A DNA stretch of 64,000 bases, from contig NZ_JAHBZK010000004.1 of NCBI RefSeq assembly GCF_019635465.1, positions 179,311 through 243,310 of the forward strand. Direction: 5' to 3'. Positions 33,843 to 45,518 of this stretch are shown one piece after another. The notes under the pieces were generated by a model. It was not told the DNA's origin. It made no database searches and worked only from the letters and a program-made list of their open reading frames with translations. The stretch's first letter is position 1, and each line of letters starts with the position of its first letter. Source of the stretch: Hydrogenophaga sp. Its GTDB lineage: Bacteria > Pseudomonadota > Gammaproteobacteria > Burkholderiales > Burkholderiaceae_C. The position numbers and the translations under genes were made by a program.

Positions 33843-34337
33843 TTACACCCTGGCGCCCAGGCCACGCAGCCCGGCTACGGTGAGCAGCACCGCCTGCGCG
33901 GCCTCGGTGCCCTTGGCGCCAAAGTGCTGCTGCAGGAATTTGCGGTGTTCCACGTGCTCGTGAAAGTGGTGCGGCGCCTGCACCGCGCAGATCACCGGCA
34001 CGCCGGTCTGCAACTGCACGTCCATGAGCGCCTGCACCACGGTGCTGGCCACGAAGTCGTGGCGGTAGACACCACCGTCGACCACCAGGGCACTGCCCAC
34101 CACGGCGGCGTAGCGACCGGACTGCGCCAGGCGCTGCACGTGCAGCGGAATCTCGAAGGCGCCGGCCACGTCGAAGACGTCGATGGCGTCGGGCCCGAAG
34201 CCGCCACGGCCCATCTCGGCAAAAAAGGCATCACGGGAACGCTGCACGATGTCGGCGTGCCAGGACGCCTCCACGAATGCGAACCGCAGGTCCGCTGGCA
34301 ACTTGGGCAGATCGGTGAGTTGGGGGGCTTCGGCCAT
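33843..34337 (-). CDS. ribH: Type II 6,7-dimethyl-8-ribityllumazine synthase (RibH2-like)
   Basis: 164 residues. VEASWHADIV, DVAGAFEIPLH, GRYAAVVGSALVVDGGVYRHDFVA and PHHFHEHVEHRKF follow the RibH2 pattern of Brucella and Mesorhizobium rather than the common RibH, so this is probably a second, decameric-type lumazine synthase. It condenses the ribityl pyrimidine with 3,4-dihydroxybutanone phosphate in riboflavin synthesis. No other rib gene is close. An in-frame ATG at 34346 is an equally possible start. It follows DUF429 by 8-17 bp and lies downstream of a BLUF photoreceptor gene. Confidence 0.88.
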   Translation of the reverse strand: MAEAPQLTDLPKLPADLRFAFVEASWHADIVQRSRDAFFAEMGRGGFGPDAIDVFDVAGAFEIPLHVQRLAQSGRYAAVVGSALVVDGGVYRHDFVASTVVQALMDVQLQTGVPVICAVQAPHHFHEHVEHRKFLQQHFGAKGTEAAQAVLLTVAGLRGLGARV

Positions 34338-34354
34338 GGTCGGCATTGTAGGAA

Positions 34355-35200
34355 TCAGGCGCCCACGATCCACCCCTCCAGGGGGTCAAAGGCCGGCAGA
34401 CCCCACAGGGGGTGTCCGGATTCGTGCTGGTGCAAGGCCCACGCCGCCTGCAACAGGCACAAGACGGCGTCGAGCCGGTCACCGCTGGCGTCGTCGGCCA
34501 GGTCGTCGCGCTGGGCATGGCTCAGCCGCAGGCGCAAACCGGAGGTCTGCAACAACGGCGCCTGCCCGTTCTCGAGGGCATTGATCAGGGTCTTGCGTGC
34601 GATCAACCGGTCGGGTGTCTGTTTGGCCTTGTCGTCGCTCTTGTAGGAGGTGCTGCCGATCACGCTGCGCGCCAGCATGCCGGGGTAGGCCTCCAGCGCC
34701 ACCCGCTGCGGGTCGCCCGCCTGCAGGCCTGCCAGCGTGACGCCAGCGGCGCGCAGGCGCGGCACACCCGCGTGCAGCATGAAGGCCACCGGCGGGTTGA
34801 CCCATTTCATGCTCGGGCTGGAGCCCGCCGGACCGTCGGTGACGCGGTGCGCGAATTTCCCGCCGGCAGGACGCGCGTCGCAGAAACCGGCAAACCGATC
34901 GCGGATCGCCTCGCGCGTCTGGTTCGCGTAATGGTCCATGCAGGCGGACCAGTCCTCGGGCCAGCCCAACGAATGCACCAGTTCGCGGGGCAGGCCAAAC
35001 GGCAGGTCAAAGCCACCGACCCAGGGCCCGGGCGCACGCAGCCTATCGGTCCAGCTGTCCAGCGAGTCGAAATGCTCGATGCCCTGCAGCACGACGCGCC
35101 CCCGATCGACCCTGCCCGACGCCAGCGTGATGGGTTTGCGCCGAGATGGCGCGCTGGTGAAGTCGCATCCCAGCAAGGTGAACGGTGTTGAAGTCGTCAC
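34355..35200 (-). CDS. DUF429 family protein (predicted RNase H-fold nuclease)
   Basis: 281 residues from a GTG. LLGCDFTSAPSRRKPITLASG matches the N-terminal strand of DUF429, with an aspartate placed like the first metal ligand of the RNase H fold; WVGGFDLPFGLPRELV and DDASGDRLDAVLCLLQAAWAL carry further acidic residues. The family is predicted, not shown, to be a nuclease. The GTG overlaps the stop of the EamA gene (GTGA). Confidence 0.82.
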   Translation of the reverse strand: MTTSTPFTLLGCDFTSAPSRRKPITLASGRVDRGRVVLQGIEHFDSLDSWTDRLRAPGPWVGGFDLPFGLPRELVHSLGWPEDWSACMDHYANQTREAIRDRFAGFCDARPAGGKFAHRVTDGPAGSSPSMKWVNPPVAFMLHAGVPRLRAAGVTLAGLQAGDPQRVALEAYPGMLARSVIGSTSYKSDDKAKQTPDRLIARKTLINALENGQAPLLQTSGLRLRLSHAQRDDLADDASGDRLDAVLCLLQAAWALHQHESGHPLWGLPAFDPLEGWIVGA

Positions 35201-36078
35201 GCCAGCCCCAGCGCCACCACACCCAGCGCGATGCACAGTGCGCCCAACAGGCGCAGGCCGCGGTCGCTTTCGCGCAGCAAATGCCCGCCGATGAGGGCCG
35301 CGAACAGCATGGACACCTCGCGCGCCGGCGCCACATGCGACAGGGGCGCGCGTTGCATGGCAAACAGCACCAGGACATAGGCCACCGGACTGAACACCGC
35401 CACCAGCAGGGCGTGACGCCATTGCGTGCGCCACAACCCCCAGGCTTCGGCCGGCTTGCGCAGCACGACCGGTGTGAACAGCAGCAGGCGCACCAGGTTG
35501 CCCATGTAGTCGACGAGGATCGGCGACATCAGCACCACCTTCACGGCGTAGCCATCCACCACCGAGTAGCCCGCGATGAAGACCCCGGTCAACAAACCGT
35601 AGCGCACGCCTCGCAGCACCCGCACGCGTGCGGCCGGATCGTGCGCAGCGCGCCACAGCCCCGGCCCGCCGGCCACGAGGAACACGCCGCCCACCACCGC
35701 CGCAATGCCGAAGGCGCCCAGGCTGCTGAGCTGTTCGCCGAGGAACAACACGGCCACCAGGGCCGTGATCAACGGGCCGCTGCCACGCGCCAGGGGATAG
35801 ACCACGGTGAGATCGGCGCGCCGGTAGCCGCGCAGCAAGGTCACGAAATAGAACACGTGGATGACGCCACTGGCCACCACCATCGCCCACTCGATGGCAC
35901 CCCATTGCACCACCACGCCGCGTCCGTACCACCAGCCCACGGGCGCCCACACCACGGTGATCAGCACCGCCGTGAACCAGGCAAAACGGGCGTCACCGCC
36001 AGCGTGCTTGGCGGCAATGTTCCAGCCCGCGTGGATCAGGCCGGCGAGCAGGATGAGGGCAAACGCGTCGAGCGTCAT
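35197..36078 (-). CDS. DMT-superfamily transporter (EamA)
   Basis: 293 residues with about ten hydrophobic segments arranged as two EamA repeats (first about 5-135, second about 150-290). Conserved features are GLIHAGWNIAAK at the start and PLARGSGPLITALVAVLFLGE in the first repeat. Substrate unknown; families of this type export amino acids or metabolites. It lies 46 bp after the BLUF gene and is coupled to DUF429. Confidence 0.9.
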   Translation of the reverse strand: MTLDAFALILLAGLIHAGWNIAAKHAGGDARFAWFTAVLITVVWAPVGWWYGRGVVVQWGAIEWAMVVASGVIHVFYFVTLLRGYRRADLTVVYPLARGSGPLITALVAVLFLGEQLSSLGAFGIAAVVGGVFLVAGGPGLWRAAHDPAARVRVLRGVRYGLLTGVFIAGYSVVDGYAVKVVLMSPILVDYMGNLVRLLLFTPVVLRKPAEAWGLWRTQWRHALLVAVFSPVAYVLVLFAMQRAPLSHVAPAREVSMLFAALIGGHLLRESDRGLRLLGALCIALGVVALGLA

Positions 36079-36124
36079 GGCAAGGCCACCGCCAGGCAGC
36101 GCCCGCCCGGAGAACGCCGGGGCC

Positions 36125-36547
36125 TCAAGCGCGGCCGATGATGCTGGCCGTGGCCATCAGCTCTTCGAGCAGCGCCAGCGACACCGCGCCCGACACCGCG
36201 TAGGGATCGAGCTCGGGCCGCTCGGAGTACTTGAGCACGATGGAGGTGTTGAGCTTGGCCAGGTTGACCTGCCCCATGGTCCAGCCACCGAAGCGGCGCT
36301 CGCTGATTTCCTGGTAGTGCAGCAGCACCACGTCCTGGTGCCGCGGGTCGGCCACGATATGGTTGTAGAGCGTGTTGACCGCGCCGCGACCGCCTTCGAT
36401 GGCCTGCAGGAAGATCCCGCCGCCGTAGCACAGCACGCCGGTGATGCCGTTGGACATGTTGTGCTGACGCGAGGATTCGAGGATGCCTTCAATGGCCTTG
36501 GCGTCCTTGTCGACAGCGCGGCTGACATAGAGCAGACGAACGAGCAT
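36125..36547 (-). CDS. Standalone BLUF-domain blue-light photoreceptor
   Basis: 140 residues, almost all BLUF. The photocycle residues are in place: Tyr7 (LVRLLYVS), Asn30 (SRQHN) and Gln48 (IFLQAIEG), with NGITGVLCY between them; spacing of Asn and Gln (18) equals that in PixD. The domain binds FAD non-covalently and shifts its hydrogen bonds in blue light. A helical C-terminal tail (about 95-140) may be the output or dimer interface. There is no EAL, cyclase or other effector domain, so it must act on a partner. GAGGC lies just before the ATG. It follows folE by 26 bp. Confidence 0.93.
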   Translation of the reverse strand: MLVRLLYVSRAVDKDAKAIEGILESSRQHNMSNGITGVLCYGGGIFLQAIEGGRGAVNTLYNHIVADPRHQDVVLLHYQEISERRFGGWTMGQVNLAKLNTSIVLKYSERPELDPYAVSGAVSLALLEELMATASIIGRA

Positions 36548-36573
36548 GGGTGCCTCGGGGGTTCAGCGGGGGT

Positions 36574-37299
36574 TCAGCGGGGAACAAGGGCGAGGAATTC
36601 GCGGCGCAGGTTGGCGTCCTTGAGGAACACGCCGCGCATGACCGAGTTGATCATCTTGCTGTCCATGTCCTTCACGCCGCGCCAGGCCATGCAGTAGTGG
36701 CTGGCCTCCATCACGATGGCCAGGCCATCGGGCTGGGTCTTCTCCTGGATCAGGTCGGCCAGCTGGATCACCGCCTCTTCCTGGATCTGCGGACGGCCCA
36801 TGATCCATTCGGCCAGACGCGCGTACTTGGACAGGCCGATCACGTTGGTGTGCTCGTTGGGCATGACCCCGATCCACAGCTTGCCGATGACCGGGCAGAA
36901 GTGGTGACTGCAAGCGCTGCGCACCGTGATCGGGCCGACGATCATCAGCTCGTTGAGGTGTTCGGCGTTGGGAAATTCGGTGACCGAGGGCCCCTTGATG
37001 TAGCGACCCGCGAAGACCTCCTTGAGGTACATCTTGGCCACGCGGCGCGCGGTGTCGCCGGTGTTGTGGTCGCTCTCGGTGTCGATGACCATCGACTCCA
37101 GCACGCCCTGCATCTTGACGGTCACCTCGTCGAGCAGCTTGTCCAGCTCGCCCGGCTCGATGAACTCGGCGATGTTGTCGTTGGAATGGAAGCGATGGCG
37201 AGCCGCCTTGAGCCGCTCGCGGATCTTCACGGACACGGGCACGCCTTCGTCGTCGCCACCAGGGGCGCCACCGGCGGCCTGATCAGGGTCGGTCTTCAT
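36574..37299 (-). CDS. folE: GTP cyclohydrolase I
   Basis: 241 residues. SACSHHFCPVIGKLWIGVMP contains the zinc cysteine and histidine, GLSKYARLAEW and RPQIQEE follow, and EASHYCMAWRGV holds the third ligand. It turns GTP into 7,8-dihydroneopterin triphosphate for folate. The N-terminal 35 residues are variable. ATG at 37299 chosen; ATG at 37305 is two codons upstream, inside the small palindrome AGCAT-AGGGG-ATGCT (37301-37315). nudB, whose product acts on the folE product, is 5 kb upstream on the same strand. Confidence 0.95.
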   Translation of the reverse strand: MKTDPDQAAGGAPGGDDEGVPVSVKIRERLKAARHRFHSNDNIAEFIEPGELDKLLDEVTVKMQGVLESMVIDTESDHNTGDTARRVAKMYLKEVFAGRYIKGPSVTEFPNAEHLNELMIVGPITVRSACSHHFCPVIGKLWIGVMPNEHTNVIGLSKYARLAEWIMGRPQIQEEAVIQLADLIQEKTQPDGLAIVMEASHYCMAWRGVKDMDSKMINSVMRGVFLKDANLRREFLALVPR

Positions 37300-37351
37300 A
37301 AGCATAGGGGATGCTATCACCGGGCCCCATTTTCCCGACACCGTGGGCCTT

Positions 37352-39037
37352 TCAGGGCGCCAGGGCGGCCAGATCGGCCAGGCAGGCGGCCTGCAACAGC
37401 GGCGTGTCGCGGCACAGGCGCAGCATGCGCGGGCCGCTCAGCACGTAGCCGCATTTGTGGCGCGCGCTGGACGTCACGGCGTCAAAGCCGATCTCCACCA
37501 CCAGCGAGGGCACCAGGCTGTGGACCGGCCCGAAACGCGCCGCCACCGTTGAACGCGCGGCCGCGGCCAGCGCCTGGCGCTCCGCGGGCTGGAGACCCTC
37601 GCCCGTGCGGGTAAGCGTCAGCAATTGCAGGTCGCCGGCCACCGGCGGGTGTCCCGCGGCAATGGCTTGCTGAACGGCGGCCAGTTCCGCGGCATCCCTC
37701 GGGGGCCGGTTCCAGACCCCGAAGCCGAAGTCGGCCTGCCCCGGTGCCGTTGGCGCATACATCAGCACCGCCTTCAGGCGACGCGCTTCCGCCGGCCAGA
37801 ACCAGACGGGCCAGGGCAGGTCGCCGCGGCTGTCGGCCGAGCGCCTGAGCAACAAGCCGAGCGCCGATTCGGCACGCGCGCGGTCTCGCCAGGTGGCCAC
37901 GGCGGGCCAGTCATGGGCGGGCAGGGGCAACAGACACACCAGTGACGGTTCGCCCTGCGCGAACGATGCCAGCGCGTCCAAGCGTTCGGACAGCGTTTGA
38001 TTCAACGGCGTCTGCCCGGCCAGTTGCAACAGGTCGGTGGCCAGGAAGCCCGCGACCACGGTGGCGACCCCACGCCGCCCACCCGGTGGGCGCGCCAGGC
38101 GTTGCTGCAGCGGCAGAAAGGGCCCCGCTCGCGCGACGCCATCCGGCTCCGGCTCGCCCGGACGAAGGGCCACGGCATGGCCCTCAACCACGGTGTCGGC
38201 GGGCCAGTGCTGGGCCAGGGCCACCAGTTCGGGCAGGTGCCCGCTCAGCCATTCGCCGTCGGCCGACCACACCGAGACCGCGTTGCGACCCTTGACGATC
38301 TGCACCGGCAGACCATCGGGGCGCCAGGTCACCACCCAGTCGCTCGCCTCGCCCAGGGTCTGCACGGGGTCACCGGCCAGCACCTGTTCAGGCGCAAACA
38401 CCTGCGGCAGATTGACCCGCCGCAGCGCCGGCCCCGGGCTGTCCAAGGGCGCCACCAGGCCACGCCAGACCGCCACCTCGTGCAAGGGCTGTGCGCCAGC
38501 CTCCACCCTGCGCGCCGCCACCAGCGCGGGCGTCAGGCCGGCGAATGCCGCCACAGCCTGATGCCACACCCGATCACGCACCCCCGTCCGAAAACCGCCG
38601 ATCAGCAGCCGGTTGAACACCCAGCGCGCCTGCGGCGTCAGCGTCTCCCACGCGGCGCTCAGGTGCGCGTCGAGTGGCTCGCCGTCCAGTGGCTGCATGG
38701 CGGGCAATGTCTGGGTCATCCACTGCGCAAGCCCGTCCCGGCTGAGCGCTGTTGGCGGCGCCAATGCCAAAACCAGCGCACAGCCCTCCGCCACATCGCC
38801 CACCGCGTCGAGCGCGGTCTGGAACAGCCACGGCGACAGACCCGATGCCACCTGCGCGGCGTGCTGCAGGCGTTCGCTGTCGATGACCCGTCTCGGTCGG
38901 TGGCCCGCCAGCAGGTGCATGGCCCAGGCGGCATCGGCCTCGGGCGCTTCTTGCAGATACCGCAGCAGCGCCGCCTGTTGGTCGGCGTTGTCGCTCTGTG
39001 CCTCGAGTGCGTCCACCAGGGCCGCAAAGCGGTTCAT
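37352..39037 (-). CDS. ATP-dependent DNA ligase homologue lacking the catalytic lysines (probable pseudoenzyme)
   Basis: 561 residues aligned by eye with the ligase-associated family: an N-terminal helical domain (about 1-190), a nucleotidyltransferase-like domain (about 200-425) and an OB-fold part ending in FGPVHSLVPSLVVEIGFDAV and RHKCGYVLSGPRMLR. Motif I should read KxDG but is WRPDG, with Arg239 in place of the AMP-accepting lysine. Motif III DGE is EGH (285-287). In motif V the lysine is Arg398 and the preceding glutamate Leu393; the KWK of motif Va is lost. Only three lysines occur in the whole protein. The frame is intact, so it is probably expressed but not a ligase. It overlaps the exonuclease gene by ATGA. 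Confidence 0.85.
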   Translation of the reverse strand: MNRFAALVDALEAQSDNADQQAALLRYLQEAPEADAAWAMHLLAGHRPRRVIDSERLQHAAQVASGLSPWLFQTALDAVGDVAEGCALVLALAPPTALSRDGLAQWMTQTLPAMQPLDGEPLDAHLSAAWETLTPQARWVFNRLLIGGFRTGVRDRVWHQAVAAFAGLTPALVAARRVEAGAQPLHEVAVWRGLVAPLDSPGPALRRVNLPQVFAPEQVLAGDPVQTLGEASDWVVTWRPDGLPVQIVKGRNAVSVWSADGEWLSGHLPELVALAQHWPADTVVEGHAVALRPGEPEPDGVARAGPFLPLQQRLARPPGGRRGVATVVAGFLATDLLQLAGQTPLNQTLSERLDALASFAQGEPSLVCLLPLPAHDWPAVATWRDRARAESALGLLLRRSADSRGDLPWPVWFWPAEARRLKAVLMYAPTAPGQADFGFGVWNRPPRDAAELAAVQQAIAAGHPPVAGDLQLLTLTRTGEGLQPAERQALAAAARSTVAARFGPVHSLVPSLVVEIGFDAVTSSARHKCGYVLSGPRMLRLCRDTPLLQAACLADLAALAP

Positions 39038-40053
39038 TCGGGTGCCTCGCCAGCGTCGCCGTACGCGGTGTCAAACTGATCCGCGCGCAAACCCAGCTCG
39101 CGCAGGTGGCGCACCAGCACTTGCTCGCTGCCGTGGGTGACGATGATGCGCTCGGCGCCGCTCGCCGCGATGGCCGCGAGCAGACCGGGCCAGTCGGCGT
39201 GGTCGCTGAGCACGAAGCCGCGGTCGAGGTTGCCACGTCGGCGCATGGCGCGGGTCTGCATCCAGCCACTGGCAAAGGCCGTGCTGGCATGGCGCACCCC
39301 TGCCAGCTCGGGCGACTGCAGCGCGCTCGGCGGGCACAGCAGCAGCGCTCGGCCCCAATCGGCAGCGTCGCTCAGCGCACCGGGCAGGCAGGTGGCCGGC
39401 AAGGGCACACCTGCGGCCCGGTAGGCCGCATTGATGGGCTCCACCGTGTGGTGACACACCAGCGGGCCGATCGACGCATCAACGCCCGCCAGCAGCCGCT
39501 GGGCTTTGCCCAGGCTGTAGCAATGCATGACGCTGGTGCGGCCGGCGGCGGCGTTGGTGGCCCACCAGGCATTGATCTCGCCGAACAGCTCGGCGTCGCT
39601 GCGCCAGTGGTAAATCGGCAGGCCGAAGGTTGATTCGGTGATGAAGACGTCGCAGCGCACCGGCTCGAACGGCGCGCAAGTGCGATCGGGCACGGCCCCA
39701 TCGGGCGTGGTGCGGTAGTCGCCACTGGCCACCCACACCCGCCCTTCGTGTGCCACGCGCACCTGTGCCGAGCCCAGCACGTGGCCCGCCGGGTGCAGCG
39801 ATATCTGCACACCGTTGTGGTTCACCGTTTCGCCGTAGGCCAGCGCCTGCAGCGAGATGCCCTGCCCCACCCGCGCGCGCAGCAATCCCGCGCCCACGTC
39901 GGCAGCCAGGTAGTGCCGATGCCCACTTCGCGCGTGGTCGGCGTGCGCATGCGTGATCACGGCACGGTCCACGCGCCGCCAGGGGTCGATGAAGAAGTCG
40001 CCCGCCGGGCAATACAGGCCCTGCGGTCGCCGAACGATCAGGTCCCCATCCAT
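39034..40053 (-). CDS. Ligase-associated DNA exonuclease (metallo-beta-lactamase/SNM1-like)
   Basis: 339 residues. The metal site THAHADH lies at residues 34-40, then HPAGHVLGSAQV, SGDYRTTPDG, and FVLSDHADW further on. This is the mRNA 3'-end-processing-factor-like nuclease that travels with an ATP-dependent ligase, a ligase-associated phosphoesterase and an Lhr-type helicase in DNA repair islands. All metal-binding positions look intact, unlike the ligase downstream. The helicase and phosphoesterase are not in this window. clsB ends 10 bp upstream. Confidence 0.9.
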   Translation of the reverse strand: MDGDLIVRRPQGLYCPAGDFFIDPWRRVDRAVITHAHADHARSGHRHYLAADVGAGLLRARVGQGISLQALAYGETVNHNGVQISLHPAGHVLGSAQVRVAHEGRVWVASGDYRTTPDGAVPDRTCAPFEPVRCDVFITESTFGLPIYHWRSDAELFGEINAWWATNAAAGRTSVMHCYSLGKAQRLLAGVDASIGPLVCHHTVEPINAAYRAAGVPLPATCLPGALSDAADWGRALLLCPPSALQSPELAGVRHASTAFASGWMQTRAMRRRGNLDRGFVLSDHADWPGLLAAIAASGAERIIVTHGSEQVLVRHLRELGLRADQFDTAYGDAGEAPE

Positions 40054-40063
40054 GGCTCGGCCA

Positions 40064-41338
40064 TCAATAGCGGTGGCCGGTCAGGAACAGCACCGTGCGC
40101 ATGACGCCGAACGCAAAGCGGTCCAGCAGGCGCTGGTGCCAGGGCCGGGCGTTGAGGGCCAGCGCGTCGACCCGCGTGCCCGCGGTGCGCATGAGGTGGT
40201 CCAGCTGTTCGTGCAGCAGCGACGAGAAGCGCCGGTCGGTGGTCATCACGTTGGCTTCGCGCGCCAGCAGCAACGACAAGGGGTCGAGGTTGGTGGAGCC
40301 CACCGTCGCCCAGCGCTGGTCGACCACCGCCACCTTGGCGTGCAGCGCGCTCGGGGCGTACTCGTGCACTTCGATGCCGGCATTGACCAGGCGCTTGAGC
40401 ACCGGGCGCGCGGCGCGGTATTGCAGAAAACTCTCGTAGCGCCCTTGCAGCAACAAACGAATTCGCACACCCCGATTGCGCGCAAAGAACAGCGCCCGGC
40501 GCAGCTTGCGCCCGGGAATGAAATACGCGTTGGCGATCACGATCTCGTGGCGCGCCTCGCCAATCGCCTTGAGGTAGGCCCGCTCGATGTCGTGGCGGTG
40601 CGAGACGTTGTCGCGCAGCACCAGCGCCGCCCGCGCCCCATCGACCCCGATCAGCGAGCTTTCGCCGGCGTCGGCGCTCGGGGTGCCGAAGCCCCGGGCG
40701 TGCGCTTCGATCTTGCGCAAGAGGCGCGAGAAATCGCCCACCGGACGCGAACCGCGCAGGGCCTCCCAGGCGGCGCTGAACTCGCGCTGGCGCGCCGCAC
40801 GCACCGCCTGCAGGCGCCACCACAACTGGTCCATGGTCTCGACCATGTCCTGCACCAGGGGGCCGGCCACGCGCAGGGCGTAGTCCAGCCGGGGCTCGCT
40901 CAGTCGACCCAGGGCCACGTCATCGAGGTCGTCGATGAGGTTGATACCGCCGCAGAAGCCCACCGTGCCATCGACCACGCAGAGCTTGCGGTGCAGGCGG
41001 CGCCAGCGGCTGGGGATGAGCAGACCGAGACGGCCCAGCGGCGAATAGGTGCGCCAGGCCACGCCGGCCGCATCGAAACGCTGCTGCCACTCGGGCGGCA
41101 CCTGCGGGGTACCCACACCATCGACCACCAGCCGCACCGCCACGCCGCGTCGCGCCGCGCGCTCGAGCGCCTGCGCCACCATCAGCGCCGAGCCCTGGAA
41201 CTCGAAGATGTAGGTCTCGACATGGACCACCTGTTGCGCCGCATCGACCGCGTCGACCAGCGCCGGAAAGAAGGCGTCACCGCCTTGCAGCAGCAGCAAC
41301 TGGTGGCCGTCTCGCAATGGGGTGCTCAAGCGCTTCAC
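40064..41338 (-). CDS. clsB: Cardiolipin synthase B-type phospholipase D protein
   Basis: 424 residues from a GTG. Two HKD motifs are present: HRKLCVVDGTVGFCGG (about 115-130) and HAKVAVVDQRWATVGSTNLD (about 295-315). ClsB makes cardiolipin from phosphatidylglycerol and a second lipid or alcohol donor. The GTG start overlaps the TGA of the EEP-family gene (GTGA). That pairing repeats the ybhP-clsB order of enterobacteria. Confidence 0.92.
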   Translation of the reverse strand: MKRLSTPLRDGHQLLLLQGGDAFFPALVDAVDAAQQVVHVETYIFEFQGSALMVAQALERAARRGVAVRLVVDGVGTPQVPPEWQQRFDAAGVAWRTYSPLGRLGLLIPSRWRRLHRKLCVVDGTVGFCGGINLIDDLDDVALGRLSEPRLDYALRVAGPLVQDMVETMDQLWWRLQAVRAARQREFSAAWEALRGSRPVGDFSRLLRKIEAHARGFGTPSADAGESSLIGVDGARAALVLRDNVSHRHDIERAYLKAIGEARHEIVIANAYFIPGRKLRRALFFARNRGVRIRLLLQGRYESFLQYRAARPVLKRLVNAGIEVHEYAPSALHAKVAVVDQRWATVGSTNLDPLSLLLAREANVMTTDRRFSSLLHEQLDHLMRTAGTRVDALALNARPWHQRLLDRFAFGVMRTVLFLTGHRY

Positions 41339-42063
41339 AGCTCCAGGTCGGCGATCAGGGGCAGGTGGTCGGACATGCGCCGCCAGGCCGGCCCGTGGGG
41401 CACGTGCGCCGACACCGGCCGCAGGCCCCGCACGAAGATGCGGTCCAGGTGCAGCAGTGGCAGCCGCGCCGGAAAGGTGGGCAGGCGGATGCCCTCGAAG
41501 GTGTGCAGGTCGAGCGCGGCCATGGGCTTGAGCAGTTGCGCGCTCCAGTCGTTGAAGTCACCTGCCACGATCAGTGGCGCACTGGATGGCACCTCGCGCG
41601 AGATGAACTGCCCCAGCCGCTGCACCTGGCGCTCGCGGCTGGCGTGGATGAGTCCCAGGTGCACGACCACCACGTGCACGTCGGTGCCATCGACCAGCAA
41701 CTGGGCATGCAACAGCCCGCGTTGCTCGAAGCGGTGGTCCGATACATCCGCATGGCCCACGCCCAGCACCGGCCAGCGCGAGAGCAAGGCGTTGCCGTGC
41801 TCACCATGGCGGGTGGTGGCGTTGGTGCGGTAGACGGCTTCGTAGCCTTCGGGGGAGAGGTAGCCCGCCTGATCGAGGTCGGGCCAGCGGGTGAAGTAGC
41901 GCTCCAGCTTGCGGTGGTGGCTGCGCACCTCCTGCAGACAGACGATGTCGGCGTCGAATTGCTCCACCGCATGCACCAGGTTGTGGATCTCCAGTCGGCG
42001 TGCCGGGCCCAGGCCCTGGACGCCTTTGTGGATGTTGTAGGTGGCCACGCGCAGCAGGCTCAT
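41335..42063 (-). CDS. Endonuclease/exonuclease/phosphatase family protein (YbhP-like)
   Basis: 242 residues with the EEP fold signatures: ATYNIHKG at the start, CLQEVRSHH, VVVHLGLIH, GDFNDW and SDHLPLIADLEL at the end. The catalytic Asn, Glu, Asp and His expected of a metal-dependent phosphodiesterase are visible. The substrate is unknown; the conserved link to clsB suggests a lipid or lipid-headgroup substrate rather than DNA. ATG at 42063 (MSLLRVATYN); ATG at 42075 also in frame. Confidence 0.9.
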   Translation of the reverse strand: MSLLRVATYNIHKGVQGLGPARRLEIHNLVHAVEQFDADIVCLQEVRSHHRKLERYFTRWPDLDQAGYLSPEGYEAVYRTNATTRHGEHGNALLSRWPVLGVGHADVSDHRFEQRGLLHAQLLVDGTDVHVVVVHLGLIHASRERQVQRLGQFISREVPSSAPLIVAGDFNDWSAQLLKPMAALDLHTFEGIRLPTFPARLPLLHLDRIFVRGLRPVSAHVPHGPAWRRMSDHLPLIADLEL

Positions 42064-42091
42064 GGCGCAAATCATCGCACGCGGCGTGGCG

Positions 42092-42574
42092 TCAGTCAGG
42101 CGCCCGACCGCCCAGACGCGGCAGCCAGCCAATGGCTTCGGCATTTGATGGCGAAAAGCAGCGCTCCATGGCCGCCTGCCACGGGAGCCAGACCTGGTCC
42201 CGGTGCTCGCGTGGGCTCAGGCGAACCGGCGCCGCACGGAGCACGCACAGGCCGAAGAGGTGCTCGGTGTTGTGGGTCACGCCCGGGGCGTAGCGGTGGC
42301 GCCATTGCGGGTAGATCTCGTACACGTTTTCCAGCCCCCAGTCGCGCAGGCGGTGGTCGGCGGCCCGGGCGTCGAGACCCGTCTCTTCGGCCACTTCGCG
42401 CACGGCCGTGGCCTCGAAGGCTTCGTTCAAGTGGTCTTTGGACCCGGTCACCGATTGCCAGAAACCCGGCGCGTCCGCGCGCTCGATCAGCAAGACCTCC
42501 AGCGCCGGGGTGTGAATCACCACCAGCACCGACTGGGGCACCTTGAAGCGGGGCGCTACGTGGGGGGTGGGCAC
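42092..42574 (-). CDS. nudB: Dihydroneopterin triphosphate diphosphatase
   Basis: 160 residues of the Nudix family. The Nudix box TGSKDHLNEAFEATAVREVAEETGL lies at about residues 42-66 (REVAEETGL complete). SVLVVIHTPALEVLLIERA and the NTEHLFGLCV segment fit NudB, which removes pyrophosphate from dihydroneopterin triphosphate in folate synthesis. Three bases after yqjK and 28 bp before the EEP gene. Confidence 0.92.
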   Translation of the reverse strand: MPTPHVAPRFKVPQSVLVVIHTPALEVLLIERADAPGFWQSVTGSKDHLNEAFEATAVREVAEETGLDARAADHRLRDWGLENVYEIYPQWRHRYAPGVTHNTEHLFGLCVLRAAPVRLSPREHRDQVWLPWQAAMERCFSPSNAEAIGWLPRLGGRAPD

Positions 42575-42577
42575 AGC

Positions 42578-42880
42578 TCAGGGGCGTTGGGCCGCGCTCA
42601 CGCGCAGCCACAGCCGCCAAACGGTCCACAACCGCCACGGCGTGGTGAACAAACGGCTGGGCCGGCGCGCCACCCACACGCCGGTCACCACCGCGAGCGG
42701 CACCACCAGCGCCGGCGGCCGCGCACGCAGCCACTGCCAGGCCTCCAGGCCGCGCTCGGCCCAGGTGAGCGCCGGCGACAGCGCCTCGGCGTGGGCCAGC
42801 GTGCGATCGCGCAAGCGGCGCGAGCGTTGCTGCAACTGCGTGCGGCGCAGCGCCAGTTCGTCGGCCCGTGACGGGTTCAT
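42578..42880 (-). CDS. YqjK-like protein
   Basis: 100 residues. An N-terminal basic helical segment (LRRTQLQQRSRRLRDRTLAH) is followed by a hydrophobic stretch (ALVVPLAVVTGVWVARRP), as in the small YqjK membrane-associated family. Function unknown. The ATG overlaps the stop of the YqjE-like gene (ATGA). It completes a yqjD-yqjE-yqjK set as in enterobacteria. Confidence 0.82.
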   Translation of the reverse strand: MNPSRADELALRRTQLQQRSRRLRDRTLAHAEALSPALTWAERGLEAWQWLRARPPALVVPLAVVTGVWVARRPSRLFTTPWRLWTVWRLWLRVSAAQRP

Positions 42881-43251
42881 GGCTCGAGCGCCTCGCGGTC
42901 CTGGCGCAACTCGTCGATGCTGGCCGAGAACAGGCGGGATCCGCGCAACACCCGCGAGCGCGCCTGCCAGGCCGCCAGCAACCCCGCCACCAGAAACACG
43001 CCGGCAAACACGGCCAGCGCCAGCAAGCGGTGCGTGTCCCACAAGGCGACGGTGACGAGCATGGCCACAAAGCACAGGCCCAAGGCCAGGCAGACCAGCG
43101 CAATGGCGCCATAGGCCACCAGACCGGCCACACGCAGAACCTCTTCCTGCGCCTCGACGCTGAACAGCTCGAGCCGGACCTGCGCCAGCTCGAGCAAAGT
43201 GCCCGCCAGGCCACGCAGCGACCCGGACAGGCGTTGGCCCGCGGGACCCAT
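42877..43251 (-). CDS. Phage-holin-family/YqjE-like membrane protein
   Basis: 124 residues. An N-terminal amphipathic part (LSGSLRGLAGTLLELAQVRLELFSVEAQEE) precedes two transmembrane helices (VAYGAIALVCLALGLCFVAML and LLALAVFAGVFLVAGLLAAW). This is the YqjE pattern; function unknown, possibly membrane stress. ATG at 43251 chosen, 8 bp after the YqjD-like stop; the longer frame upstream overlaps that gene. Confidence 0.87.
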   Translation of the reverse strand: MGPAGQRLSGSLRGLAGTLLELAQVRLELFSVEAQEEVLRVAGLVAYGAIALVCLALGLCFVAMLVTVALWDTHRLLALAVFAGVFLVAGLLAAWQARSRVLRGSRLFSASIDELRQDREALEP

Positions 43252-43259
43252 GGGCCCGC

Positions 43260-43580
43260 TCAACGGCGACCGATCAGCAGGCCGAGCAACAAGCCCACGC
43301 CAGCGGCGGTGCCGATCGCCTGCCACGGGTGCTGGTGCACGTACTCATCAGTGGCACGCGCCGCCTCTTTGGTCTTGGCGGCCACGGTCTCTTCGATGTC
43401 GGCCAGCCTGTGTCGGGCGGCCATGAGGTTGTCGCGAATGCGTTCGCGCATTTCGACCACCTTGCCTTCGGTCTCGCCTGCGGTGGCATGCAGCAACTCT
43501 TCGGCGTCGGCAATCACGCGTTGCAGGTCGCGCACGAGCTTTTTCTTGCTGGCGGTGCTGTCGTTGACGGCTTCGGTCAT
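43260..43580 (-). CDS. DUF883/ElaB-YqjD family membrane-anchored protein
   Basis: 106 residues. A helical, charged body (LVRDLQRVIADAEELLHATAGETEGKVVEMRERIRDNLMAARHRL) ends in YVHQHPWQAIGTAAGVGLLLGLLIGRR, the characteristic C-terminal membrane anchor. In enterobacteria these proteins bind ribosomes at the inner membrane in stationary phase. ATG at 43580 has GGAG nearby. First gene of yqjDEK-nudB. Confidence 0.9.
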   Translation of the reverse strand: MTEAVNDSTASKKKLVRDLQRVIADAEELLHATAGETEGKVVEMRERIRDNLMAARHRLADIEETVAAKTKEAARATDEYVHQHPWQAIGTAAGVGLLLGLLIGRR

Positions 43581-43662
43581 GGGAGGCTCCTTTCCTGTGG
43601 TTGGGCCCATCGGCGATGGACAACACGGGGTGCGATCGGCACAGGATACGCAGGTTCCATGC

Positions 43663-43686
43663 AAAAAGGCGCCCGAAGGCGCCTTT
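43663..43686 (-). terminator. Rho-independent terminator of aspS
   Basis: On the minus strand AAAGGCGCC-TTCG-GGCGCCTTTTT forms a perfect 9-bp stem with a TTCG tetraloop and a run of five Ts, 30 bp after the aspS stop. It also separates the aspS operon from yqjD downstream. Confidence 0.85.
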
Positions 43687-43715
43687 GCGGTGTTGTCCTA
43701 CAAGGCCGGGCCGAC

Positions 43716-45518
<1,803 letters not shown>

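Follow-up and report, generated by a model that had tools for sequence, protein, structure and literature searches.

The whole stretch of DNA considered here, hereafter the window, comprises 64,000 nucleotides of Hydrogenophaga sp. (assembly GCF_019635465.1, contig NZ_JAHBZK010000004.1, positions 179,311 to 243,310) and carries on its minus strand, at 37352–39037, an open frame encoding P0001, a homologue of the ligase-associated, LigB-type ATP-dependent DNA ligases in which the catalytic residues have been replaced. The frame is intact, evolves under weak purifying selection and lies next to the gene of an intact exonuclease of the metallo-beta-lactamase (MBL)/beta-CASP type. We regard as an evenly balanced proposition that P0001 is a pseudoenzyme derived from an active LigB-type ligase and kept as a non-catalytic partner of this exonuclease, while another ligase carries out the sealing.

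Loss of the catalytic motifs

The P0001 frame spans 561 codons with no internal stop, and its matches to NF006701/PRK09247 (297 bits, cut-off 543) and TIGR04120 (265.5 bits, cut-off 400) cover nearly the full length of the protein. The three-part layout of the ligase-associated enzymes, which an initial annotation made from the sequence alone had proposed, is shared with the LigB-type ligases, with which P0001 aligns over its full length. At the level of individual domains, the N-terminal domain scored above its Pfam cut-off, no Pfam adenylation domain was matched in P0001 at E up to 1, and the OB domain (PF04679) reached 13.8 bits, below its cut-off of 27.5, this region being nonetheless alignable with relatives. 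The features of the frame are as follows (conserved columns are defined below; "dead" denotes loss of the catalytic motifs).

37352..39037, minus strand: dead LigB-type (ligase-associated, TIGR04120-like) DNA ligase homologue, P0001 (NF006701 and TIGR04120 matches as above, motif table of 116 rows)
38423..39037, minus strand: N-terminal domain PF04675, residues 1–205, the best-kept part with 37/54 conserved columns (Pfam 28.2 bits, cut-off 24.6)
37742..38422, minus strand: nucleotidyltransferase domain remnant, residues 206–432, 36/76 conserved columns kept (column count)
38312..38326, minus strand: motif I site, WRPDG (residues 238–242) replacing WKxDG (alignment)
38177..38185, minus strand: motif III site, EGH (residues 285–287) replacing DGE (alignment)
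37844..37858, minus strand: motif IV site, GLLLR (residues 394–398) replacing G(L/F/M)MLK (alignment)
37793..37804, minus strand: motif V site, WFWP (residues 412–415) replacing WKWK, the second Lys being Pro in all four dead homologues (alignment)
37355..37741, minus strand: OB-fold region, residues 433–561, 27/55 conserved columns kept, GHGRR lost (PF04679, below cut-off)

The motifs were read from an alignment of P0001 with 60 loci and later from a table of 116 rows, in which 93 distinct active full-length homologues (96 rows) served as the comparison set. The motif I stretch EWKxDGIR reads TWRPDGLP in P0001, so that the adenylated lysine, present in 96/96 active rows, is replaced by Arg239, and EG(L/M/F)MLK has become LGLLLRR, with Arg in place of Lys398. 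Together with EGH and WFWP, these changes confirm the earlier claim that the catalytic lysines have been replaced in an intact frame of 561 residues; in all, the lysines of motifs I, IV and V, DGE and GHGRR are lost. Lys398 closes motif IV and WKWK represents motif V in what we take to be the usual numbering, for which the initial annotation had used V and Va.

Only three lysines remain in the chain, a count given earlier and reproduced here, compared with 9–31 (mean 19) in the active rows. The initial annotation had set a lysine at the adenylation position against its own interpretation; by sequence alignment with the 96 active rows, none of the three occupies that position. The column of Lys249 is occupied by Arg in 48 of the 96 rows and by Lys in 41, that of Lys422 by Asp in all 96, and Lys528 corresponds to the lysine of RHKSG in the OB region (Lys in 91/96). 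Since P0001 would thus be unable to take up AMP on a lysine, it is predicted to be incapable of ATP-dependent nick sealing by ligase chemistry. An AlphaFold model of P0001 computed from two sequences was too poor to use, with a predicted local distance difference test (pLDDT) score of 40.

Dead homologues in a second genus

Two TIGR04120 surveys were performed, the first of which covered 200 genomes of the family (82 over the cut-off) and revealed a second dead ligase, L067 of genome G170. The second covered 399 genomes, overlapping with the first, and among the matches listed 168 of 176 scored over the cut-off. The eight genomes below it comprise the window genome (G000) and G170, both with dead ligases, G302 with a second-type ligase only, and five genomes (G043, G323, G345, G353 and G396) with ligase fragments that keep the motif I lysine wherever it is covered. 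The ligase of G353 (L089, L095) is broken into two pieces that overlap and are read in different frames, apparently through a frameshift; its lysine of motif I is retained. Within the genus of L067, five of 13 genomes carry a homologue, two of which are active (L082 and L083) and three dead (L067, L084 and L085). Additionally, a search of 399 genomes of the order with the four dead sequences gave matches in 71 genomes at E 1e-40; of the 30 loci read from these, one is the window and the other 29 keep their motifs. Among the 116 aligned rows, dead sequences are confined to P0001, L067 (included twice, the second time as L081), L084 and L085, and all further irregular rows are fragments; as motif-by-motif reading was limited to the fetched loci, single-residue losses in other over-cut-off genomes would escape it.

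All four dead homologues score below the curated TIGR04120 cut-off of 400 bits (P0001 as above, L067 307.6, L084 269.4 and L085 201.7 bits) and contain 3, 2, 3 and 0 lysines, respectively. Two replacements are common to all of them, namely Leu for Ile243 and Pro for the second lysine of motif V. Among the matches listed in searches of the open literature on inactive or pseudo DNA ligases and on the ligase-associated system (subscription papers lying outside the search), no natural bacterial pseudo-ligase was encountered.

A different ATP-dependent ligase is present in five genomes of the family (L063, L064, L065, L066 and L092), in four of them beside the usual one, and the four that were fully read keep their motifs. 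L063–L066, second ligases in four genomes, had been considered as candidate dead forms on account of their low TIGR04120 scores and were rejected, as all of them retain KxDG together with the motif IV and motif V lysines.

Selection on the frame

Under a codon model of nine genes, the ratio of non-synonymous to synonymous substitution rates (dN/dS, omega) on the P0001 branch was 0.20 or 0.25 for two placements of the branch, against a background of 0.08, and omega = 1 was rejected (twice the log-likelihood difference of 72 or 46 in the free fits and 135 in the tied fit). When the branch was fixed at the length of the exonuclease (3.5 neutral changes per codon) omega was 0.45, while lengths of 2.5 and 5.0 gave 0.64 and 0.31, respectively, each fitting better than omega = 1. 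Similarly, for L084 and L085, which represent one locus in the other genus (MFS neighbour 93% identical, ligase 46%), omega was 0.29 with time free and 0.54 once time was tied to that neighbour (0.78 for a shorter and 0.38 for a longer tie), and omega = 1 was again rejected. All of these fits involve large divergence, with synonymous sites near saturation in most pairs. The initial annotation had suggested that selection keeps this non-ligating protein; a constraint does exist, but weakly, at 0.20–0.25 (free) or 0.31–0.64 (fixed length) against 0.08. Purifying selection on P0001 is thus weak but present.

The absence of stop codons is in agreement with this. In neutral simulations run to an equal loss of conserved columns (a simple substitution model without insertions or deletions), approximately 9–14 nonsense mutations occurred and approximately 6–9 stops were left standing, compared with none in P0001; together with the rejection of omega = 1 in every fit, this upholds the earlier view that selection has kept the frame. 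Conserved columns were defined as the 185 that are conserved in at least 95% of the active rows, with the 108 fully invariant columns as an alternative set. P0001 keeps 100 of the 185 and has lost 85. Within residue types, the kept columns of P0001 coincide with those of L067 (84 shared, 73 expected, odds ratio 5.3, p 0.0002) and of L084 (74 shared, 65.5 expected, odds ratio 3.4, p 0.0014), and likewise in the invariant set (p 0.0002 and 0.0006, respectively).

Furthermore, P0001 keeps all 11 conserved tryptophans, of which stop-free neutral simulations keep about half, with all 11 kept in none of 1800 runs. L067, L084 and L085 each keep eight of the 11, a level reached by 28–66 of 300 runs per setting, so that this test, which was picked after the residue table had been viewed, is strong only for P0001. 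Nonpolar columns were kept in preference to polar ones (70/104 and 30/81, p 5e-5), and L067, L084 and L085 lean in the same direction (p 0.0004, 0.07 and 0.012). The N-terminal domain is the best-kept part of P0001 (37/54 columns, compared with 63/131 elsewhere, p 0.015) and is similarly favoured in L067 (p 0.03), the preference not being significant in L084 and L085.

Neutral simulations yielded 11–14 lysines on average and fell to three or fewer in five of 1800 runs. The lysine count was nevertheless dropped as a sign of special selection because the exonuclease next door is poorer still: this intact protein has a single lysine in 339 residues, and seven exonucleases counted have 1–4. The number given in the initial annotation therefore holds and its weight as a signal is reduced. 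That annotation had also envisaged a DNA-binding scaffold for the exonuclease. A DNA-binding role is not supported, since conserved basic positions are not favoured (0/8 Lys and 13/26 Arg kept), polar columns are lost more often, and the net charge is −7 (−6 to +9 in active rows); the connection with the exonuclease gained indirect support from co-occurrence.

The exonuclease accompanies the ligase gene

The ligase start overlaps the stop codon of the upstream exonuclease gene by ATGA, as had been noted earlier:

39034..40053, minus strand: intact ligase-associated MBL/beta-CASP exonuclease (TIGR04122), ATGA overlap with the ligase frame (440 bits, cut-off 325; 14 conserved H/D columns kept)

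The two genes are adjacent in most loci fetched, and the exonuclease scores over the cut-off in all four dead-ligase genomes. Among the 67 genomes of the window's genus, both genes are found in 43, the ligase only in two (G240 and G217, fragmented), the exonuclease only in none and neither in 22; each of the 43 exonuclease-bearing genomes thus has at least a fragment of a ligase gene, and the exonuclease is absent from all 22 ligase-less genomes. In the other genus, where 11 of 13 genomes were tested, five have both genes (the exonuclease of G267 being split and below the cut-off) and six have neither. The exonuclease there exceeds the cut-off in the three dead-ligase genomes and in G272, which has an active ligase, while in the six ligase-less genomes a match is absent or below 45 bits. 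The genomes compared are related, hence Fisher values overstate their independence.

The exonucleases of G170, G266 and G268 (L139, L140 and L141), which are three species, occupy one shared kind of locus with queF-like and arsC/spx-like neighbours (read by eye), and L084 and L085 still have in their vicinity, like the ligase of the window, folE-like, BLUF-like and DUF429-like genes. In G267 (L143, 7513–10291), where the ligase is active, the exonuclease is in two pieces separated by approximately 1.6 kb, the second of which contains an in-frame TGA; this is the reverse of the situation in the window. As regards the published four-gene cluster (LigB/Lhr-Core/MBL/phosphoesterase), only its exonuclease-ligase half was seen in the window genome; searches confined to this genome, which is 88% complete, for the helicase (TIGR04121) and phosphoesterase (TIGR04123) yielded nothing over the cut-off.

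Origin of P0001 and the number of losses

The window genome (3.9 Mb in 29 contigs) contains a single TIGR04120 match at E 0.001, which is P0001. All 67 genomes of the genus were searched, and 45 of them, including the window genome, have such a match, the best other being 43% identical to P0001. Eleven genes are collinear between positions 33843–45518 of the window and locus L062 of a Hydrogenophaga metagenome-assembled genome, in the order aspS, NUDIX, EEP-type, cls, exonuclease, ligase, folE-like, BLUF-like, EamA-like, DUF429-like and ribH-like. The ten neighbours are 72–96% identical and the ligase 40%; similarly, in comparison with eight relatives the exonuclease is 72–76% and the ligase 38–43% identical. 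One neighbour served as a synteny marker:

36574..37341, minus strand: folE-like GTP cyclohydrolase I, downstream of the ligase (conserved neighbour; below NCBIfam cut-offs)

Given the gene order shared with L062, P0001 is the native ligase gene altered in place, and it is the positional orthologue of the LigB-type ligases. Like these (TIGR04120/PRK09247), it sits next to a TIGR04122 exonuclease, has the three-part layout, aligns over its full length and is orthologous to the active ligases of its genus, but it differs from them in the absence of the catalytic lysines, DGE, WKWK and GHGRR and in scoring below the family cut-off.

When P0001 is the sole dead sequence in the tree, its position is within the main clade formed by its genus (13 rows, support 100/99), beside L068/L034, with two more rows of the genus, L047 and L053, outside this clade. 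The exonuclease tree likewise places the window's protein in the main genus clade (98/95), the three exonucleases of the other genus forming a clade of their own (100/98). L067 stands apart from the active ligases of its genus, membership of which was not rejected (approximately unbiased test, p 0.114). The P0001 branch is very long, at 4.3–8.8 changes per column. A joint tree groups all four dead sequences (92/99), with warnings of joined long branches and odd composition. On the strength of the P0001-alone tree, the exonuclease tree and the native gene order, a single origin of P0001 and the other dead ligases was rejected, not with certainty. Because P0001 nests in its genus clade once the other dead sequences are omitted, and because its placement in the ligase and exonuclease trees agrees with synteny, a loss that occurred independently in the lineage of the window is supported; two independent losses of catalysis would thus be the supported, although not certain, reading.

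Exonuclease positions changed in both lineages

39247..39450, minus strand: exonuclease residues 202–269, with six conserved positions (202, 203, 238, 252, 253 and 269) also changed in the other dead-ligase lineage (alignment)

Of 129 conserved exonuclease columns, the window protein has lost nine, that of G266 nine and that of G268 seven, and these six are common to the three (p 1e-6 and 1e-7 by the hypergeometric test; with stratification by variability over 88 rows and 137 columns, p 5e-6), G266 and G268 being close kin and not independent. The G170 exonuclease has lost 12 columns, four of which are shared (five in the 137-column set). Arg252 is invariant in all 92 exonuclease rows of other loci (89 distinct sequences), whereas all four exonucleases of dead-ligase genomes lack it. 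Columns 202, 203, 238 and 253 also show mild deviations in a small number of other exonucleases. When only columns invariant in all 92 rows were considered, the overlap was two (252 and 269, p 0.003–0.008), and with G170 it was one (p 0.22). Since four of the six columns are mildly variable elsewhere, the parallel changes are taken as a lead only. An AlphaFold model of the exonuclease from two sequences (pLDDT 33) was too poor for mapping these positions, and solved relatives match the protein at best within residues 38–191, short of them.

Our tentative and somewhat doubtful extension of the proposal is that at least two independent conversions of the ligase to a dedicated non-sealing partner may have taken place, with the exonuclease changing in step at Arg252 and Gly269, and probably at 202, 203, 238 and 253. 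These positions would then mark a surface where the two proteins, or a shared DNA intermediate, communicate.

Possible explanations for the retention of a dead ligase

In the explanation put forward here, an active LigB-type ATP-dependent ligase would have been turned in place into a pseudoenzyme, and weak purifying selection on its folded core would maintain it because it still serves the exonuclease as a non-catalytic partner. As such, P0001 might position, stabilise or regulate the MBL/beta-CASP exonuclease, or hand its product on. We infer that P0001 folds and physically contacts the exonuclease, and that a different ligase, which we assume to be the NAD+-dependent LigA, carries out the sealing. 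Several observations weigh against this proposal. The constraint on P0001 is strongly relaxed, with omega 5–6 times the background in the tied fit, and the protein could on that account be on its way out. Charged positions were preferentially lost, and the kept columns of P0001 show no correlation with those of L085 (61 shared, 59.4 expected, p 0.33; p 0.14 in the invariant set). The window exonuclease is itself mildly relaxed (omega 0.105–0.108, compared with 0.062), and that of G170 lacks, among its 12 lost columns, two conserved Asp residues (277 and 284). Furthermore, in G170, G266 and G268 the exonuclease and dead ligase are on different contigs, at a distance that, judged by the contig ends, is at least approximately 20 kb in G170 and more in the other two; the exonuclease has thus been relocated in that genus and operon coupling was not kept there. 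The joint tree does not show two losses, and co-occurrence holds for active ligases too, so that on its own it does not show that the dead form matters.

Decay in progress, in which P0001 would have drifted since the loss of catalysis under a residual constraint only (e.g. against misfolded or aggregating products) with no function left, is in our estimation unlikely. It would account for the very long branch, the five- to six-fold rise of omega in the tied fit, the loss of 85/185 conserved columns and the depletion of lysines, but neutral drift to the same retention would have left stops in the frame, and neither the full complement of tryptophans nor the correlated retention with L067 and L084 would be expected from it. 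The persistence of three dead ligases in a second genus, where the exonuclease is unlinked, also speaks against decay, as does the end-to-end alignment of P0001 through ten internal gaps, although the latter, being a protein alignment in whole codons, shows merely that there is no uncompensated frameshift. A separate and decidedly improbable alternative is that the frame is held open purely for translation or transcription, an internal stop being polar on the folE-like gene. This gene lies directly downstream on the same strand, and the exonuclease-ligase overlap does suggest coupled translation. However, selection on openness alone would produce neither omega below 1 nor the tryptophan retention and correlated columns, simulations in which stops are forbidden still lose tryptophans, and two dead ligases of the other genus are followed by a convergent MFS gene.

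The retention of core positions with loss of the active site, and the two replacements shared by all four dead homologues within the old active-site motifs, would also suit a new activity unrelated to the exonuclease, for instance the sensing of nucleotides without covalent attachment, or binding to a new target. We consider this improbable in view of the co-occurrence with the exonuclease, and no further shared motif was seen in the four-row alignment (no dedicated motif search was made). That P0001 is still an active ligase, acting through a displaced lysine or another residue, is highly improbable: three lysines remain, and the migration of residues is known among pseudoenzymes in general (PMC10211241), but not one of these lysines lines up with motif I, the loss extends jointly to motifs III, IV and V, and lysines number only 0–3 in the other dead homologues, with none in L085.

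The proposal that P0001 is a non-catalytic partner has parallels in other systems, which are analogies and not tests. One of these is DNA ligase IV, whose eukaryotic partners are not known to occur here. Catalytically inactive human and mouse ligase IV (K273A/K273S) is reported to support joining and to promote ligase III (PMC9638927; PMC11754673), which resembles the model proposed here in that an inactive ligase supports repair while another one, there ligase III, seals; those proteins are engineered point mutants of a non-homologous end joining ligase, however, and P0001 is natural. Similarly, the N-terminal domain of ligase IV is described in PMC3664939 as binding an Artemis peptide, and in P0001 it is the N-terminal domain that is best kept and an MBL/beta-CASP exonuclease that is its neighbour; a particular feature of the ligase IV complex is that binding is through that peptide. 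Finally, PMC10140301 describes nuclease-LigB fusion proteins in Opitutus terrae and a Dry Valley metagenome, such that exonuclease and ligase can form one polypeptide, although the ligase module expressed there was active and the genes are separate in the window.

Implications for the LigB pathway

According to PMC10140301, it is not known what purpose the LigB pathway serves biologically. The existence of natural dead ligases in company with the exonuclease suggests that the contribution of the ligase can be other than sealing, and these ligases constitute ready-made separation-of-function variants in which the exonuclease may be compared with and without a sealing partner. The exonuclease positions that change in step would provide a short list of candidate contact residues. 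Should a structural role be confirmed, it would parallel, in a natural protein of bacteria, the one that has been reported for inactive ligase IV.
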